A stretch of DNA of 64,000 bases from contig JAQFWX010000053.1 of the NCBI GenBank assembly GCA_027605045.1, positions 188,609 to 252,608 on the forward strand, in the 5' to 3' direction. Under the pieces are notes generated by a model, which made no database searches, had not been told where the DNA came from, and saw only the letters and a program-made list of their open reading frames with translations. Positions 21,977 through 51,011 of the stretch are shown here, piece after piece (position 1 is the stretch's first letter; every line of letters begins with the position of its first letter). The position numbers and the translations under genes were made by a program. This DNA is from Phallus indusiatus. Its lineage: Eukaryota > Basidiomycota > Agaricomycetes > Phallales > Phallaceae.

Positions 21977-23530
21977 ATGAGCTCATTCGAAGAAGACCTA
22001 GAATCTCAATCCGACGTTGAAGTGACACGAATGATTAGACCCGCTGCCACCGAAGAAGATAAAGCAATATTCGATGAGTTGCTTCGAAAGATATCAACCG
22101 TTGATTCTTACTTTTGCTGTGGCGGGATTCTGGAATTAATCGACAGACCTCTAACTCTTTACTACAAGTCGGAAGCTGCTGGTAAAAGAAACTGGTAATA
22201 AAGTCAATTCCACCGATAAGTAATACTTTTGACTTAACTTTTTTGCTTTTTTTGAATCGCTAGGCTTGATTTCAGCAACTTTTTTAAACAATCGCAAGAG
22301 GACCGCCAGACCGCGATCAACGACCTCCTTAAAGCGTGTGTGCCTGCTCCCCACGGAAGGGGAGATGAGACCGTTATTGATGAATCTTATCGATTAGCTC
22401 GCGAGCTCCGTCAAAACGAGTTCGCGCTCAGCAGGGATCTTTTGGGTGAAACCGGTGGCGATGTTTTGTCAAGCATTAGCGCTTTAGTCGCAGGGCGATG
22501 GGTCCTCGCTATGGAGCAAGCCTTCGAAGACGATAACAAGACACGAAGGAGACTGGTAAATCCTGCCGCGAGTGTTCCGAGTCTGACGATAATTCCGCGA
22601 TTGTACAAACTCAACGCCTATTCTAAAGATGGCTTCTTCAAATCTCATAGAGACACCCCCAAGGGAAATGATCATATAGGTACATTAATGATTGCTCTTC
22701 CGGTTCCTCATCAAGGCGGCGCATTGCGAGTTAATCACGACGGGAAAGAGGTTCTTTTTGATTGGCATCAACAATGTTCCAATGGTGTTCAAGTTCAGAA
22801 GGATGAATTGAAGATCATCAGGCACAGTAGACGTTGGACCGTCTTTGATGGCGAATTTAGATGGAACGACGACCCCATTGTACAACTGTTTGGTTGCTGC
22901 GCTGCGTAATCCTTTGTTCCTTACCAAGGGTGCCGAAGTTGCTATTGCGCTTTCGCATTCATACCCCATGCCTCGCAAAGCAATTAAACTGACAAACTCA
23001 GAATTCGCGGCACATTTAAAAGGCATCGATGCGATTGTATATCGTGCGATGCAAGCGGCTGGATTTGATGTTTCTCTGAAAGCTGTAATGATGGGAGAAA
23101 CGTACGATTACCAGTCTGCGGGTATTCCGGAAGACGGTTACGACCCCGTTATCACTTCAAGTCGGCCACACCGATTGGGTAACACAAGCTACACGAGGGC
23201 CAAATTCCTCATTACGTCCGATGTCTTCACTTTTATCGACAACCCCGATTTGTACGTGGACGAATTAGATTATAAGGATGTGGTTAACGCCCATTTTGGT
23301 GTCCAAGCAAGTCCTCAGCTGATGTGTGAGTCACAAGCATCTCTAACTTTTCGGTGACCATATAATTATCTTTTGTAAAAAAAGGGGTGAAGAAACCGAA
23401 AGACACGTTCATCAACGCTGGTGCGTATCTGGCCTACTCGAACGAGCATTCAATGCATTTCTTTTACGCTGCGGCTGCGTTCATATTGAATGTTCCACCG
23501 TTTGGGGAAGGATATCGCGCCTTCTCTTGA
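21977..23530 (+). pseudogene. 2-oxoglutarate/Fe(II) dioxygenase paralogue, catalytically deleted
   Basis: Collinear with the intact gene at 29621-31286. Exon 1 is 21977-22196 (MSSFEEDLESQSDVEVTRM). Exon 2 starts at about 22264 (LDFSNFFKQSQEDRQTAIND) and keeps the iron-binding SHRDTPKG and the strand following it. After DELKI near 22820 about 40 codons present in the paralogue are missing, including the segment with the distal histidine (LEHEV) and the 2OG-binding arginine (GTRVTIAYD). The frame shifts as well. Sequence similarity then resumes (ANLDGTTTPLYN) and runs to FGEGYRAFS and stop, including a conserved last intron. A truncated protein ending at about 22909 could be made but would lack a complete metal site. 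Confidence 0.8.
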
Positions 23531-29620: not shown

Positions 29621-31286
29621 TTAAGAGAAGACACGAGAGCCTTCCCCGAACGGTGGAACATTCAGTATGAACGCAGCCGCAGCGTAAAAGAAGTGCATTG
29701 AATGCTCGTTCGAGTAGGCTAGATACGCACCGGCGTTGATGAATGTGTCTTTCGGTTTCTTTACCCCTGTTTGGAAAAGATGGTTGCAACGTCATCGGAT
29801 GAAAGGCTTGCAATTGGAGATAATACTCGTAACTCACACATCAGCTGCGGACTTGCCCGAACACCAAACTCGGCTTTGACAACATTCTTGTAATTAAACT
29901 CATCCACATGCAGATTGGGGTCATCTGTAAAAGTGAAGACATTGGACGTAATCAAGAACTTAGCCCACGTAAGGCGTTTCCCGGTATAATATGTCCGACG
30001 TGATGACATGACCGGGTCGTAACCGTCTTCTGGGATACCCACAGGCTGATAATGATCTGTTTCTTGCACCATAACAGCCTTCAGGGAGACTTCAAATCCA
30101 GCCGCTTGCATCGCACGATACACAATTGCATCAACGCCTTTCAAATGTGCTGCGAATTCTGTGTTCGTCAGTTTGATTGCTCTACGGGGCATGGGATATG
30201 AATGTGAAAGCGCGATGGCAACCTCGGCGCCGTTGGTAAGGAATGAAGGATTACGCAGCGCAGTGACAAAATATTCATATAATGGGGTCGTCGTTCCGTC
30301 CACGTTAGCCATTAAAGACGGTCCAAGATCCACTGGTCCGGATGATCTTGCTTTCGTTGGAGAGAAAATATCGTAGGCAATGGTGACACGTGTCCCAGAT
30401 TCGACAGGAAGAACCTCGTGCTCAAGATCGGAAAAGATGAATGCCCAAGGGAGTGAGATCTTCAATTTATCTTCCTGAATTTGAACACCGTCGGAACACT
30501 GTTGATGCCAATCGAAAAGGACTTCTTTTCCGTCGTGGTTAACGCGCAATCCACCACCTTGATGAGGAACCGGAAGAGCGATCATCAATGTACCTATATG
30601 GTCATCTCCTTTAGGTGTATCTCTATGAGATTTGAAAAAGCCCTTCTCAGGATAGGCATTGAGTTTATACAAACGCGGAATCATCTTCAAACTCGGAACA
30701 TTTTTGCGAGGATTTATCGACGGTACTGTTCTTTTTCTCTTTTTCATATCAGCAGCGCGTTGAGCTTCGATAGCTTGTTCTTTGGTGAGTACCCATCGTC
30801 CCGCAGTCAACGCGCTGATGCTCGACAAAATCTCGTCACCGATTTCACTCAATAGGTCGATGCTGAGCGCGAATTCGTTTTGACGGAGCTCGCGAGCTAA
30901 TCGATATGATTCATCAATAACGGTCTCATCTCCCCTTCCGTGGGGAGCGGGTACACAGGCTTCAAGGAGGTCGTTGATCGCGGTCTGACAGTCCTGAGCT
31001 GATTGTTCCATTAGGTTACCGAAATCGAGACTGATGAATCAAACAATAAATTTGAGAGGTTCATTGTCGGAATGGATTGACTTTATTACCAATTGCTTTT
31101 GCCAGTCGTTCTAGATTTGTAGTAAAGAGCCAGAGGTCTGTCGGCTAATTCGAGAGTCCCGCCACAGCAGAAATAAGAATCAACGGCTGATATCTTTTGA
31201 AGCAGTTCATCGAATATTGCTTTATCTTCTTCGGTGGCAGCGGGCCTGATCATTTTGGTCTCTTCAGCCTTCTTGGAGGAACTCAT
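29621..31286 (-). CDS. 2-oxoglutarate/Fe(II)-dependent dioxygenase, prolyl-hydroxylase-like
   Basis: Minus-strand exons 31286-31090, 31030-29838 and 29766-29621 (GTAATA...ATCAG and GTGAGT...ACAG introns) give 511 residues. The double-stranded beta-helix core shows the iron ligands His201 and Asp203 in FFKSHRDTPKG, the distal His270 in DLEHEVLPV and the 2OG-anchoring Arg280 in GTRVTIAYD. The N-terminus (MIRPAATEEDKAIFDELL) and an HRGD-free PAPHGRGDETVIDESYRLA block are shared with the paralogue at 21977. The long C-terminal half has no recognised domain and may set substrate choice. No signal peptide is seen, so it is probably intracellular. Members of this type hydroxylate proteins or small molecules; the substrate cannot be told from sequence. 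Intact and probably the functional member of the pair. Confidence 0.85.
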
Positions 31287-42163: not shown

Positions 42164-44272
42164 CTAACAATCCCAACCCTTCATAGCGGGAGATTCGCCT
42201 TCTCGACTTTCAGGGCATGCAATCGCACTCGGGCCGAATACATTCTCTAGCAAGAGGCGTACGGCGTTTAACGATGAGACCTAAACAAAGACGGTATGAG
42301 GTTTTTTTGCGAGATTGTTGTTTTTTTCACGTACGGTCTCAGTTTCCATGGTTGAGATAAATCTACATTAAGCATTGAGAACACAAAATACGGGTTTCTT
42401 ATCGGAACTTCCCAACTTACGGTTCAAACGAATTGACGTAATATATTCCCTCAGCGGGTACGACAGGGGCATGTGTAATATTTGGCGGGAGAACTGGGTA
42501 TGAATCCCACTAAAAAAATAATGAATCAATTCTTTCGCACTCAAGTTTTCGCCCAGCTCACCTCTTTTCTGTATATCCAAGAATACCTTCCGAAAACCTT
42601 TCTCAAAAATGACGATTCAATAGGCTGCTCGGAGAAAATCTTGACAACATATTCATCCGGTCGTCCATCATGCCCTTTCACGCGACCAAGATACGTCAGC
42701 GAGTTGAACTCTGGAGAAGGTCCATTGCCGGCCCTGAAATTAGCATTCGTGGTTAAAACGCTGGTTGGAGTTGTGTCGTCGGGTTTGAGGGAAAAGTACT
42801 CCGGACGCGGGTCTGGCATTCCGGTGGTTAGTAATGTGACGTGGAGGTGAATGTAGGGTTGAGGTGGGATGATTGAGGAAAGTGAAGGCTCTGTCACAAT
42901 TCCGCTGAGATGGAATGGTGCAGCGAGGATGATACTGTCGTACACGCGACTTTCGCCGCTGGAAGTGGTCAGTGTCCACGTATTATCCTTTTTGACCAAG
43001 GAAGTTATCTTAAAAAAAAACAGAATACAAGCTTCTTAATCAAAGTAAGAGAAATGAGAGCAAAAAAGGCGTTACAATTGTGTTGAGATAAACTTTGGCC
43101 GATGAGCGAGACACGAATTCTTGGAATATTTGGTAATTCCCTCCTTTGACGCTCGTAGCGCCACTGGTTGCTTGGCTGATTAGACCTTCTAGAGCGTGTA
43201 TTTTGGTGGCATCCTGGACGAAAGCAATGATATTATGAGACAAGGAATTCTGATAAACTATATATAACATACGTGGGCATAATTGACTCGGGTGAAAGCT
43301 ATTGGTTTAAAAAAAATCAAAAACAGCGCTACTGATTGGTAACGTATAGATACCTTCGGTGAATTCATCGATATATAATTGACCGACGCCATTATCAAGC
43401 ATGTATGTTTCGATGGTTTGGTGAAGAAGGTCGGAAAACCCGAGGCTCGACGCTACATCTGATATACTTGACCAATCCTTGAATGATGTATTGTATACAT
43501 TAACATATGAGCTGACCGCTTGATCAACACTAAAGGAAAACAGTGCGTTAATAAGGGACGAGAAAGATGTTTGAACGAAAGTCCTGACAGAGATTGGGCT
43601 TTTTGAGGTGTGGTAAGGCCATAACGGAACATGATCCTGATCATATCCCACCAACTGAACGACCCGTTTTTCTGGGTAATCTACATGAATCCATAAGAAA
43701 ACCTTTTAGCGTTGCGTGAGACGCGTGATAAAAACTTACACGAAACCTAAACGATGACCCATCCCAGATACCTAACTCTTCATCACCCTCGCCAAGATTT
43801 GACAGAGAGAGATTGAACTCTTCAGCAGCCCTCATGAGGTTCTTATTCGCATTGACAAATATCGAAGCGCCTAATTCAACAGGATCGTAAAACTCAGAAT
43901 CGTGTGGTCGAACCACCGTGCTGCCTGCATAAGGGCAGAAACAAGAAAAGATTACATCAGCTTTCACGCTGAAAATGCGAGAACCCAAGCTAACGTACGT
44001 CCACCGATGTATGTCTCTTTATCATATATATCAACTTGAACCTTGACAAGCTCAGGATATCTATTAGCTGCCTGGGAAAGCCAGTACGCAGCACTGGAGC
44101 CACCGGCGCCGGCACCAATGATGGCAACTCGATGCGGAGTATCGTTATTGATGTTGGGCAGCGGGTCATCTCTGGTTAAGAATGGGAGTTGAAATGGTAT
44201 TTGAAATGATTGAACATTCGTAAAAAGAGATAGAATAACGGTCGCTAAAACCGGTGACAATGGCAGTAGCAT
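42164..44272 (-). CDS. Prenylcysteine oxidase-like FAD flavoprotein
   Basis: Starts at ATG 44272 with a signal peptide (MLLPLSPVLATVILSLFTNV) and a Rossmann FAD-binding motif VAIIGAGAGGSSAAYWLS. The next regions read PVELGASIFVNANKNLMRAA, SFSSLINALFSF and YIDEFTEG. Near the C-terminus are TLTTSSGESRVYDSIILAAP, VTLLTTGMPDPRPEYFS and DSYPVLPPNITHAPVVP. It ends MKGWDC and TAG at 42164. The order matches prenylcysteine oxidases, lysosomal or vacuolar enzymes that break down farnesyl- and geranylgeranylcysteine released from prenylated proteins. About eight exons; only approximate borders were set. The gene looks intact. A CaaX pheromone gene lies about 5.3 kb away, which would yield this enzyme's substrate on turnover. 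Confidence 0.8.
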
Positions 44273-44447: not shown

Positions 44448-46741
44448 TTAGTGCATATGAAGGATATCATCGAGTACATGGGGAAACATTTCTTTAAATG
44501 ATGTTACAAAATCCATCGCTTCTTCATTCACCAGTGGTGCCAGCAGTCTTTCGAAAAAAGAAAGATCAATAACCAGCGATCCGACCAAAGAGAAGGCAGA
44601 GAAGCCAATAAAAAAACTTACAACACTACCATGCACACCCCAGAACACACCAAGTCCAAATATTATCCATCCGACGACAATCATACCAATTGACAGGCCC
44701 AACATAGTCCAGCTCAACCACCTCCGATTCTCACCGAGAATTTTGAGATTATACTCTCTCGCTTGAAGTTCTTTGAATTGCTCATACTCATCTCCGGATA
44801 CGATCGGTCCGAGCTTATCTAGCCGTTCGACTTCTGCGATTGTTCGTCGGGCAGGGACTTGCGCGAGTCGTGCAGCCGGGAGAACGGGCCACCATGACGA
44901 ACCGAGGAGAAGTAGAGAACCAGATATCGCAACGCTGACGAAGGCGTATGCTAACCAAAGTGATATGGCGTCTATTTGACATTGTAAGTTGGTGATATTT
45001 ATTTAATTGAGAGAAGAGTTCGCAAAGCTTACTGTCAAGCGATCCCTTTGAATTGTCCTGAATCTTGCCAGCAGCTGTCGTTATAATGACGATAGACGCT
45101 TGCACAACAGATTCTAATGCACATGGTCAGTTGGTTCCAGGGAATTTGGAATTGAGATAAACACTTTTGATAGCAAAGGCTGTTGCGAAATAGCGAGGGT
45201 CCGGGATAACGTTCCGAACAATCTCTACTTGGGGCGCTGGTGTTACACACTAAGCGGAAACACGTGAAACATAAATATCAAGGAAATTGTAATACAAATA
45301 CTTCTAATATATCTCACCTGAGACAGCGCGTAAAATACATAGGCAGCTACGAAGGTCGGAACTGAATGACTGAATCGTAGAAGAAGCATTGAAATGAGAA
45401 AAGTGAGCCCCGACAAGAACACTATAGGATGTGAACATGAGTTAATCATTGATCATTGACGTTCAGTAGATCATAAGATCACATACACAATGTTACACGA
45501 TTCCCGAATGCATCAATCCAAACGCCCAAGAAGGGGGTAAGGCCTACCGGAAGAAGTAAGTAGAAGCTCGAAACCCAACCTCCAATGACTGCTCCCTTCT
45601 TGAGACGCTGTTGTGCGAATTGACTCAATTAAACAGCCAGATTAGTTTTTAATAATGAGCATCGCTTTTTTTGGAGAACTTACGTGGAAATAGAAACGAA
45701 GCTTTGAACTCCAGCGTTCTCGAAAACCGCGAACCCAACGATAATCCAAAATGTGGTGCTCAGTCTTCGTAAGGCTGTCAAGGAAAATATATTCTTCTGA
45801 GTTTTCCTGACATGTTGAGTTCCGTCCGTGCAGTCGGTAACATGATATCGACGAGTGAGATATTTGTCGAGTATCACCAGTCCGATTGCGCAGATGAAGG
45901 AGAAGAGGGCGATGATTGCGCTGATCCACAGAGACCATGCATATGAGCCCAAGTTTCTCGTGATAACGTTAGCGGTCGATTGTCCCACAAATTGACCGAG
46001 GTTGGCGACCGACCAAATCATCTATTACGGATATCATAAGATAAAAAAGAACTGGTAAGAGATTTCGTGAGAACACACCCCAATGGAAAACGCGAATCCT
46101 TTTCCTGGGGCAAAGTAGGTTGAAAAGACTCGGTGCTGAGCGTTATCAAGGCTACTATCTCCAACCGCTGCAATAACCTTTCCGACAATGAGAACCACAA
46201 AACTGTTCAGGTTGTTCGTTGCAGCGCCTGCCATGATCGTCGCACCCGCTAGATGGAAAAAAGCGAGAACGACAGAAAGTCTTGCGCCACCCCATTTGTC
46301 AATAGCAAATCCGAGTAAGATGCATAGGAATGTGTTGACTAGATTGGTTACGGTGACAAGAGTTGCAAACTTGGAGTTGTTGACGTGGGTATGGGAGATG
46401 ATGGTAGTTTTCAAGGCAACGATTAACCCCTAGTGGAAGAATAGTGAATAAGGTTTGAAGGTGAGTGTGATAGAGAAAGCACGCACGTTAGACCAGTGAT
46501 TCCCGACTTCATTAAATAAAAATTAATGAAAGGTAGCCTAAAAATGCGTTTACGTACAACTGCATAGGCAGGTCAATACAATCATTCCCAACCTCCAAAG
46601 AATGGGTAAGCTGGGTTTCCTGGCAACTTCAACGACAAGACCTGATGAACCATCTCCGTCACTTTTTGACGGTGAGTTTGGAGTTTTTTCGTCGATGGGA
46701 GAGAGGCTTCTTGGTCGTTTCTCATCAGAATCGCTGGACAT
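44448..46741 (-). CDS. Major facilitator superfamily transporter
   Basis: ATG 46741 opens a hydrophilic N-terminus (MSSDSDEKRPRSLSPIDEKT). About twelve membrane segments follow, among them LGMIVLTCLCSC, ATLVTVTNLVNTFLCILLGF, VVLAFFHLAGATIMAGAA and LWISAIIALFSFICAIGLVI. The loop after TM2 carries the MFS-type GFAIDKWGGARLS. The C-terminal part reads AYVFYALSQCVTPAPQVEIV, then AISLWLAYAFVSVAISGSLL, and ends LLAPLVNEEAMDFVTSFKEM with VLDDILHMH. It belongs to the fungal plasma-membrane or vacuolar MFS group with a large central loop; substrate cannot be inferred. Roughly ten exons split by short introns, with approximate borders. It shares its strand with the prenylcysteine oxidase gene, 175 bases downstream. 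Confidence 0.8.
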
Positions 46742-49533
46742 AGTTGGCGATGAGAAGATACGAGCTCGACTAATACCCTGTTTTTTATGCAAAACCAAGT
46801 TGGAAAGGGTGCTCGAGGCGGGCAGGGGGGAGAAAGAGCTCGTATTTTTCTATTCCCCTAGGCACACACACATCTTATCAGATTTTTTTTTTTAGGGCAT
46901 GGAGAAGCCAAGGAGAAGCGGTTGGCCGGAATGCAACTGTCCGCCGAGCGCTAAGGAAAATTCCCCGATTCGGAAAGTGATTTCCCACTCAGCCGACTGC
47001 GGTTGCATAATCAGCTGCTTATCAGATAGTAGAACGTTTATCTGATTTGATTTGAATTGCATCATAGCTCTGGTAATTTGGCCCTCGAGCTTCGAGGGTG
47101 GCTCTTGGCCTTGTAAATTTCTACTCTCAGGACCTAAAATAAATTTTGGAGAAATATGGCCTTTTTCCGAGTGGGCGCGGACGACGTTCTTCCCTCATGC
47201 CCTGTGATGAATCTGAATAGACCATCAACGGATTTTGACAGTCATAAATCACATCATTATGGTTTTTAGAAGTACACTAGAATGTAAATCTGCCAATTGA
47301 ATCGGTTGACTAAGCCTAATTCAGATAAACACGGCCGCTCGCGCCACATGGGCAAGGGGAAGGGGAAGAAATAAGCGGTGCATGCTATCGAGTAATATCG
47401 AAGTTCCCACCTACATAAAAATTGTCTTGGGAATTTACTCTAAATGTATGAACAGCCTCACGCTCTACAAAATTGTAGAACCAGGTGAAATGAATTTTCG
47501 AAAGGACGGCACCCAGTAGCGAAATGAATGTTGGAATCGTTGTCCGGTACCAGACAAATAATGAATTCTCAGGAACATATGTCAACAGAGATAGAAGAAG
47601 AAAAAGGCAAGTAATTCAGGTGGACTGCCAGTCGGAAACAGAATGTGTCTCAAGTCTGATAAGCAACGATGGCGGCAAAACGAAAGTTAGAAAGCTTCTG
47701 GCTAAAGTTTACCTGCTTAGAAAATCTATGACTAGCTTAAAATCAATGGGGTAAGCTTTTTAAAGAGGATGCGACGCGGCACTGTCGGCGTTCATGTTCA
47801 GTATGACAGTAAAGCGGAAAGCCCTGTCTTTTCTTGTAACGCCCAGCCTCAACCCCCAATATGGCCTCGGATCCATAATGAACTCTAATACCCTTGCACC
47901 GATTAATTCATGTAGAAGAGTATGTCAAAAAAAAAAGCGCACAATTTGAAAGATCCAGTTGTAAAGACTTGCATACTAGGCCCGGACACCTGCCCGTATA
48001 CCGACTTGATCAGTCTTCAATTTGCTCTATTAATAAAGTTGCTCCCTGCCTGTATAGTTGCTGGCCGCTGACAATTTGTCTTAGACGGGAAATCACTTTC
48101 TTAATACAGCGTATAATTATGCGTCTAATACAGGAAAGGAATCATTAAGCCCGAAGGGTGTCGTGCTGTTGAATTTGACTTCATATGTAATGGATATCCT
48201 AACCGTTCTTAAAATAATGAGTTTCATCAAGCTAATAAACAAGTTCATACGATGTTTGCCTCACATGGGCTGGAACCCACTTTATCTCTTCGGCAGTTCT
48301 ATTTCCATAAATTTGAAATTTCTATTCTAAATTTTGCTTCCATTTCAGACTTCATACCATAATCTTGACTCACTAGGATATTTATATTTATGCTAGTCAG
48401 ATCAGAATTATCGTGCAAGTCCACGGCTCGCTGGCGGGGAAAAAGTTTCTAATTCTGAAATTCAAATGAAGCGCGGAAGCAGCTTGGACCTGAACTAGAC
48501 TAGTCTAACTCAAAAACTGATTCTGAGGAAGTTCCCGCTAAATGAGTGTTAGACACCTCCTGAACCTTCACAAGTTTTTTCAAATTGTTCTTAGTTTGTT
48601 CTTAATATATATATAATCCGGAGTTCAAATATTTCATCTATAATTCAAATTCTTTTCAATTGGTACACCCTGATAATCAATATATTGTTGGACTGAGCTT
48701 CTATGGTCATGTAAGACACACATCCCGAAAACAAATTCGTCCGTCATTCGCCTCATATAGAAGCGGAGCTAAATTTCCTAACAACCAATCGGAAGGCGGG
48801 ACGTAAATACATATTGCCTCTTTTTGGGTAAGAATAGGAATTTTGACGGTTATCAAATATCGTAGGCTAATAGAGTAGACCGGACTTGGGGACTGAGAAC
48901 ACCGAGCTGTCAACATGACCCCTCTCAGTCGTTAGAAACGTTGAAGGATGATGTTGTCTTTTCGTATGGAACTATGAGGTTATCTCAAAATTTGAGACCT
49001 TGTAACGTCCTATCCTCTCGTGTTCTTGTTGCGAAATGACGGCTGGCACTTCAATGAAGCACCCACGTACGAATTATAGTCTATGCCCGAGATTGTCAGT
49101 CCGGAACTGGAAAATCAGTATGTCTATGTTGATGGAGATGATATATCCATTTATGGATGCGAGTTTCTTTTTGTTTTCTTTGAGCGGTGATCATGTTGAC
49201 GAAATTAGCAAAAAGACACGGACTCAGAGGCCGATGTGAGACATGAATTTAGAAAATAGACGCGAACCGAACATACCCCGAAGCGCATGTACAAAAGTTG
49301 ACTCCAAAAAGCGTTGATATGCCAGGAACGGCGAGTATAAACGGATAGTGGTCTATTGTACATCTCATTCCGAGTAATACCTGTCAGACATTCCCGATGG
49401 TCTCGATCAACTTATTTCACAGAACAATGCAAGTCTCACTTCGTCCGAATTTGCAGCCCTATATCTTCCATTCTGAGAAAAGACAAAGAGTGAAAGCCTC
49501 GAAACCCATTTTGGGTCGGGGTGCTCCGCGCGA
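46742..49533. other. Intergenic stretch
   Basis: 5' flank of the MFS gene, then about 2.5 kb AT-rich sequence with no supported exon. A small palindrome CTCGAGCTTCGAG is at about 47083, and a TA run (ATATATATAATC) at about 48605. Nothing else assignable. Confidence 0.4.
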
Positions 49534-49540
49534 TATAAAA
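49534..49540 (+). promoter_or_regulatory. TATA box of the pheromone gene
   Basis: TATAAAA lies 87 bases upstream of the ATG at 49621. The intervening leader is pyrimidine- and A-rich, as in highly expressed fungal genes. Confidence 0.55.
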
Positions 49541-49620
49541 GACCGCGAAAAATGAGTCGAGGAGACCCCACCCAACTTTCGAACTTCAACTCGAAACCTA
49601 ATCACTCTCAATCTATATTC

Positions 49621-49801
49621 ATGGACTCTTACTTGGAACTCTTATTCGCTCTCGTCTCCAAAGACAAGCAAGACAAACCCGACGAGGATCTCACCAAGAA
49701 CGATGATACCCCCGTCTCTGGTGGCCCAAGCGGCTGTGTTATCGCTTGGTACGTTCCAAATTCTGTAAGGCTTGTGTTATTCCTGACTTAGAGATTTCAG
49801 A
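49621..49801 (+). CDS. Lipopeptide mating pheromone precursor (CaaX), split stop codon
   Basis: Exon 1 (49621-49748) codes 42 residues: MDSYLELLFALVSKDK, an acidic Asp/Lys/Pro middle, and a C-terminal SGGPSGCVIA. Exon 2 contributes only the A at 49801. The codon TG|A is completed by splicing the 52-base GTACGT...TTTCAG intron (49749-49800), so the protein ends exactly at CVIA. Basidiomycete pheromone precursors are 40-80 residues, begin MD-S/A-F/Y, and end in a CaaX box for farnesylation, trimming and carboxymethylation. The mature peptide is cut out of the C-terminal part and read by STE3-type receptors. Unspliced, translation would run through Trp and bury the CaaX box. No receptor gene was found in the window, so this may be a stand-alone copy outside the main mating locus. 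Confidence 0.8.
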
Positions 49802-51011
49802 ATGAACACGCGCACTCACCCCCCTAACCCTTTTCGAGTTCGGTTTGATGGTTCCTTCGGGTTCCATCCGTTGTGTTTTGTTCTGGCATAATCTTCGTTC
49901 AATTATGTTATTCTGTAATTTATAAACACTGTAACTTCTGGAGTAATTTGAGACATGTATTCCAATGACCTACTTTTATTTATTTTGACGCGTGAATTCA
50001 GCGACAAGTTCAAGGGCTATCTGCCATCTGCCAGGCTACAATTGTCAATCCTTATCATTGACCAATCTTCGTTGGAAACTTTCGGAACCGAGAATTTACA
50101 GGAGATCATAGCCTATCTGAATCACGATGCGATTATTGTTTGATCAAAACGGTAAGTAGCAAAGCCAGTCCTTGTGATGTGCGACATGTTTTCATCGCCG
50201 GTATTGGCAAAGCCGCGCATGTGACAGGATCGGTGACAGTCCCCGTTATAACGCGTTACGTTGACTTCCCACCTTATTGTTTCCCATACGGCACGAACAA
50301 AAAGGAATCTGCTCTTTCTAGGTTCGTTTTTCGCCTTACTATCCAAATCTTCAAATGAAACTTAGATTTTACTTCCTGAGATTCAACCTTTTGGACCAGG
50401 AGCTCTATCATATAACAAGCTGTGCCGGCCTAGATAAAAAAAAGGAGGAGCAAATGAGAAGCCGGGTTCGAATTTCAGCGATTTGCGCCGTGGTTTGGGC
50501 TGTGATGTTTCGAAAATATTTGACTGCTCTATTTGACACAGCATTTTTGCTTTTAGAAGACAATCTGGAGAAAAGGTAGTGACCACCATCGATTCAATTA
50601 CTAGGGCCGATAACGCCGGATTTTACCTAATACGGCGTTCAATGCACCGTACAGGCTTTGTGTACACTCCTGCTTTTTGTGATTTTTTCAATGGTAGTCA
50701 ACGAAAGCTCGGAGAAAAACATTACCGATGGATTCACTGGCCGTCATCCTCCGTCATCCCCTCGCCACGAAAACTTTGCGATTCCATCAATGTCAACATT
50801 GTGGAGAAGGTCACGTCCGGCTGACCGATTAGACCGAGGAAGACTTTATAACAAGGACAAAATAACCCTGCGATTGTATAGTTTTCTCGGGAGCAAACTT
50901 CTGTTAACAACAAAGAATATATATCAAGGTTAACCCTAGCTTTTATATAGTACACATATACAATTAAAGGAGTCCTTAAATATTAATAACCATTTATAGA
51001 AATCGCATCCT
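49802..51011. other. Intergenic stretch
   Basis: Short open frames on both strands but no domain, no consistent splice pattern and no second CaaX precursor that I could see. Includes the 3' flanks of the pheromone and manganese peroxidase genes. Confidence 0.4.

Follow-up and report, generated by a model that had tools for sequence, protein, structure and literature searches.

On the forward strand of the window (the whole 64,000-nucleotide stretch analysed here, C155:188609-252608, from an assembly of 67.2 Mb in 206 contigs), an ATG at position 49621 opens a frame of 42 codons. The frame (49621-49746) encodes MDSYLELLFALVSKDKQDKPDEDLTKNDDTPVSGGPSGCVIA and ends in CVIA (49735-49746, +), a CaaX box by its translation and one also carried by the a-factor of yeast. 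In genomic DNA, the codon directly 3' of CVIA is TGG (49747-49749), and the unspliced frame runs past the box for 14 extra residues, the Trp included (WYVPNSVRLVLFLT), before it reaches a TAG. The last base of this TGG is at the same time the first base of a candidate intron of 52 bases (GTACGT...TTTCAG, 49749-49800, +), with its donor GTACGT at 49749-49754, a branch-point-like CTGAC at 49783-49787 (+), 13 bases from the intron end, and its acceptor TTTCAG ending at 49800. Base 49801 is an A. Removal of the intron would thus join exon 1 (49621-49748, +), made up of the 42 codons MDSYL...CVIA and the first two bases of a stop codon, to the third base of a spliced TGA at 49801 (+), with a 3' untranslated exon from 49802. 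CVIA would be C-terminal in this spliced reading only. The coordinates, the TGG codon and a 52-base intron yielding TG|A had all been put forward in the original prediction, and they were confirmed as given by the sequence and its translation.

With 42 residues and an MDSY start, the predicted product falls among the short precursors (about 35-100 aa) that begin with MD(S/T/A). A charged motif, N27-D28-D29 (49699-49707, +), stands 10-12 residues ahead of the Cys at position 39 and is a candidate N-terminal processing site; it is acidic, and none of its residues form the canonical ER or EH among the charged pairs (ER, EH, ED, DR...) considered. The general rule given in two sources places charged residues about 10-15 aa ahead of the C-terminus (PMC3140503, PMC8305134). 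Upstream, a TATA-box-like TATAAAAG (49534-49541, +) lies 87 bases 5' of the ATG and may act in the promoter. An in-frame upstream ATG at 49552 was set aside as a start codon, because it lies merely 18 bases behind the start of the TATA box. Still further upstream of the TATA box is an ACAAAG (49483-49488), which could be there by chance; the same hexamer is given as the core of the HMG-box or smut pheromone response element ACAAAGGGA (PMC3248468).

Quality of the candidate intron

The order GT...branch...AG and a length usual for this genome are both as would be expected of a spliceosomal intron. On an ad hoc score of our own, combining donor, branch and acceptor, the candidate reaches 12 and ties with the best of 13 STE3-receptor introns from the same genome, which were themselves inferred from sequence in 14 gaps between STE3 exon matches and picked by the same score (4 to 12; 46-82 nt, median 54). 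Positions that open a candidate scoring at least 12 occur at about 3 in 100,000 (264 kb, both strands), a background of which real introns form part. Furthermore, the 3' end contains three AG dinucleotides, ending at 49791 (very near the branch site), 49793 and 49800, and each of them is followed by an A, so that TGA would be restored with any acceptor used; three acceptors with a single predicted outcome favour robustness.

The complete arrangement (MD, 30-70 codons, CaaX and TG|GT...AG|A) appeared in 0 of 20 random replicates (first-order Markov, 264 kb, both strands), and MD...CaaX frames with a direct stop came at 0.1 per 264-kb random replicate of the same dinucleotide make-up. The CaaX set of this test leaves out Leu as X, and for this reason one of the frames described below (MDVFI...CTIL) is uncounted in it. 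The short pattern CaaX-TGGTRNGT is not significant by itself, with two genome matches, both of them the window gene on its two haplotypes, versus two in the reversed control. As judged from these sequence features, the proposed gene structure, a frame with an intron in its stop codon, is very probably right.

Other split-stop patterns were also searched for across the genome. CaaX-TA|GTRNGT gave two matches versus two in the control, one being the MDTFF gene described below and the other lying on C100 without a pheromone frame. The wider CaaX-TG|GT pattern gave 29 matches versus 25, of which two were read, both the window gene. The T|GTRNGT form gave six versus three, with an MD frame in 0 of the five read, and the sixth (C45) shares the 19 letters of the C1 match. 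The survey is incomplete, its reading covering two of the 29 wide-pattern matches and five of the six T|GTRNGT matches.

Receptor-linked pheromone genes and a shared position of candidate introns

Frames with CaaX-like ends, direct or split, were screened in the window and 20 loci. Among the 26 rows obtained, six were kept for their MD start, representing four distinct genes, and 20 were dropped. Besides the window gene, these are three genes beside the STE3 receptors of C153 and C120: MDIFF...CTIS on both contigs, MDVFI...CTIL on C153 only, and MDTFF...CIVT on C120 only (C120:273571-273684, 0.7 kb from an STE3 receptor, thus on one haplotype only). Alignment of the two contigs around these receptors runs at 93% or higher and breaks off at a core without a match (about C153:133.5-140.0 kb versus C120:270.4-274.2 kb), within which MDVFI and MDTFF lie. 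With several STE3 genes, three distinct pheromone genes and a haplotype-specific core, this region (C153:130-140 kb / C120:267-274 kb) looks, from its sequence, like a heterozygous B locus.

An intron candidate stands near the stop in each of the four distinct genes, at distances of 2, 2, 15 and 28 bases counted from the first base of the stop codon. In MDTFF, as in the window gene (score 12), it begins after the second stop-codon base (TA|GTGCGT...CGCAG|A, 60 bases, score 9.5). MDIFF, scored on its C153 copy, has a candidate of 53 bases (score 10) at the distance of 15 bases, and MDVFI a weak one of 64 bases (score 8) at the distance of 28. Random 34-base windows contain a candidate at thresholds of 12, 9, 10 and 8 in shares of 0.0011, 0.029, 0.013 and 0.051, respectively; the product, about 2e-8, is only rough because the 34-base range was chosen after the genes were seen. 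Since all four genes have such a candidate, we infer that an intron placed at the stop codon or shortly after it is usual for the pheromone genes of this genome, and in two of the four (the window gene and MDTFF) the candidates occupy the identical place within the stop codon.

MDTFF...CIVT resembles the window gene in its MD start, its CaaX end and an intron candidate after the second stop base. It differs in that its stop would read TAA if spliced and TAG if unspliced, both readings ending at the CaaX box, which is thus free without splicing; it is also STE3-adjacent and confined to a single haplotype. The window gene alone has a CaaX end dependent on splicing, because its stop at this intron site is TG|A, while the other three stop after the CaaX box when unspliced too.

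These comparisons bear on how the TGG codon should be understood. Were it the trace of a decayed gene, whose stop had been lost by a change from TGA to TGG, the intron signals would be coincidental and the product an inactive precursor ending in FLT. The authors of a Flammulina study interpreted their own gene with a Trp behind the CaaX box in this manner (PMC3140503, PMC5100862). For the window gene we consider such decay improbable: an intron scoring 12 would fall precisely at TG| with an expected rate of about 3e-5 per position, the remainder of the gene is intact, and its paralogue MDTFF has a candidate intron in the same place.

The original prediction had moreover suggested a switch, in which regulated intron retention would choose between a farnesylated pheromone (spliced) and a non-prenylated form of 56 residues (unspliced). 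As this idea demands, the unspliced frame does continue for a further 14 codons and has no CaaX at its end. Nevertheless, donor and branch are strong rather than weak, TGA would follow from each of the three AGs, and the search for unusual RNA structure in the 261-nt transcript region found none (z -0.26, with 77 of 200 shuffles folding at least as well). In addition, retention would leave the CaaX box terminal in the other three distinct genes, all of which stop in the unspliced reading, and the family intron position would therefore serve no switch. On these grounds we regard the suggested on/off switch as very unlikely; the arrangement seems rather to be a gene layout that would escape simple searches.

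Genomic setting and relatives of the gene

A second copy of the gene lies on C125, in a region that aligns to the window at 93-97% over two long stretches and was for this reason taken as the other haplotype. The gene and its intron are identical there, within a block of 3,722 bases (about 46576-50298) that matches without a difference; the surrounding 13 kb holds 484 columns that differ between the haplotypes, 0 of them inside the block. The block may reflect a recent conversion, a crossover or an assembly effect. Because the haplotypes are identical over these 3,722 bases, their comparison gives no test of selection.

The 24 STE3 exon pieces of the genome are distributed over C153, C120 and C61, and STE3 matches are absent from C155 and C125. 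A pheromone gene of the B mating-type (P/R) locus would be linked to STE3 and differ between haplotypes; the window gene does neither. With the same sequence on both haplotypes and at a distance from the receptors, it looks in its context like a non-mating-type pheromone-like gene. Genes of that kind have been described in Agaricus bisporus (PMC8305134).

Searches for relatives were negative within their scope. The protein database returned no homologue of the window precursor for the 42-aa query, and when the four distinct precursors were aligned and used as the query it gave a single candidate, with no match at E <= 10. The Pfam scan recognised no family for the window precursor; the pheromone family PF08015 matched neither this genome, receptor-linked genes included, nor the control genomes, and its silence is hence not decisive. 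That the frame is no pheromone gene but an ORF that arose by chance and happens to carry a CaaX-like tetrapeptide, a view to which the missing family or homologue match and the lack of STE3 matches on C155 and C125 would lend themselves, is highly unlikely given the rarity of MD...CaaX frames at random (0.1 direct and 0 split per 264-kb replicate), the position of the remaining MD...CaaX frames in 264 kb next to STE3 receptors, and the presence of a TATA box and a strong intron.

We thus read the locus, with a probability of about 0.83, as a basidiomycete farnesylated-pheromone precursor gene from an agaricomycete, possibly of the Phallomycetidae, unlinked to a receptor on its contig, whose stop-codon intron is most likely removed constitutively. 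Splicing of TG|GT...AG|A would create the TGA and a precursor of 42 residues ending in CVIA, which would be farnesylated, trimmed and methylated, and cut near NDD to release a peptide rich in Gly, about 10-13 residues long. The intron itself would be the one usual for the family at or just behind the stop, the stop having here become TG plus A over the junction; translation of an unspliced copy would add 14 residues and bury the CaaX box. The high quality of the intron and the same-position candidate in MDTFF support, in this sense, the claim of a basidiomycete lipopeptide pheromone precursor that needs intron removal for a free CaaX box.

Comparison with published pheromone genes

A prenylated pheromone has to terminate exactly with its CaaX tetrapeptide. 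A stop formed only by splicing is therefore an unusually unforgiving layout, and one that searches for CaaX-ended ORFs would miss. Pheromones have been sought as ORFs ending in CaaX in three studies (PMC4938666, PMC10598064, PMC12387193), and two surveys found no pheromones near receptors (PMC10598064; PMC9498453, by TransDecoder). The original prediction that gene finders would miss the gene is supported in part, by the published searches of CaaX-ended ORFs just cited.

Several described genes invite comparison. In Agaricus bisporus, three pheromone genes have ESTs with an intron in the 3'UTR (PMC8305134), which agrees with the intron position usual for the four genes studied here. The precursors resemble the window gene in their length (44-54 aa), their mature peptides of about 11-13 aa rich in Gly, and an intron near the 3' end in the three expressed genes; unlike in the window gene, the intron is reported after the stop.

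FvPp1 of Flammulina velutipes was published as a 'CAAXW*' gene, in which a Trp codon and a stop follow the CaaX box. Its authors proposed a mutated stop and later an inactivated pheromone, with resequencing and transcriptome data backing the Trp (PMC3140503, PMC5100862). It shares with the window gene the genomic Trp codon right behind the CaaX box, and differs in the authors' reading of this Trp as a mutated stop, with transcriptome data in support. We predict that FvPp1 may be a misread case of the same split-stop layout, since a TG|GTAA or TG|GTGA donor would read as Trp followed by a stop in genomic DNA, and 10 of the 13 STE3 introns inferred here begin with GTAA or GTGA. The authors' transcriptome statement speaks against this link, and would have to come from unspliced reads or from a real Trp. 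A weaker candidate, perhaps, is php-s1 of Pleurotus ostreatus, with an MDTF start, an ER motif, a receptor-adjacent position and a 74-aa model without a terminal CaaX (PMC12387193).

More generally, and only tentatively, we propose that stop-splitting introns recur in mushroom pheromone genes, that CaaX-ORF searches lose or misjudge such genes, and that the Trp of FvPp1, and perhaps the CaaX-less end of php-s1, are splice-donor artefacts; this extension seems to us possible but rather doubtful. Recurrence is proposed because an old intron would sit at the stop codon and drift among TA|G, TG|A and a place just behind the stop. If this were true, mating-type inferences resting on an inactive FvPp1 would need redoing. 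A split stop would also give a simple reading of the Flammulina puzzle. The literature searched, mainly open-access, yielded no account of a pheromone gene whose stop is split by an intron, which is weak evidence of novelty; of interest is rather the intron position common to the family and its possible bearing on odd pheromones already published.

Neighbouring genes

Other features of the window were recorded around the gene. For a neighbouring PEMT exon, the nearest named relative comes from Hysterangium stoloniferum, at 67% identity (among the best 120 of 2,237 matches); a position of the genome near the Phallomycetidae may be guessed from this single exon. At 42541-43035 (-), about 6.6 kb from the pheromone gene, an exon matches PF07156 (prenylcysteine lyase, E 1.5e-13); an enzyme that degrades prenylcysteine would thus be encoded beside a gene for a putative prenylated peptide, perhaps by chance. 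Finally, two related 2OG-Fe(II)-oxygenase-like frames are found at 29761-31038 (-) and 22256-23357 (+, interrupted), PF13640 being seen in the first and the second being linked to it by its similar translation.
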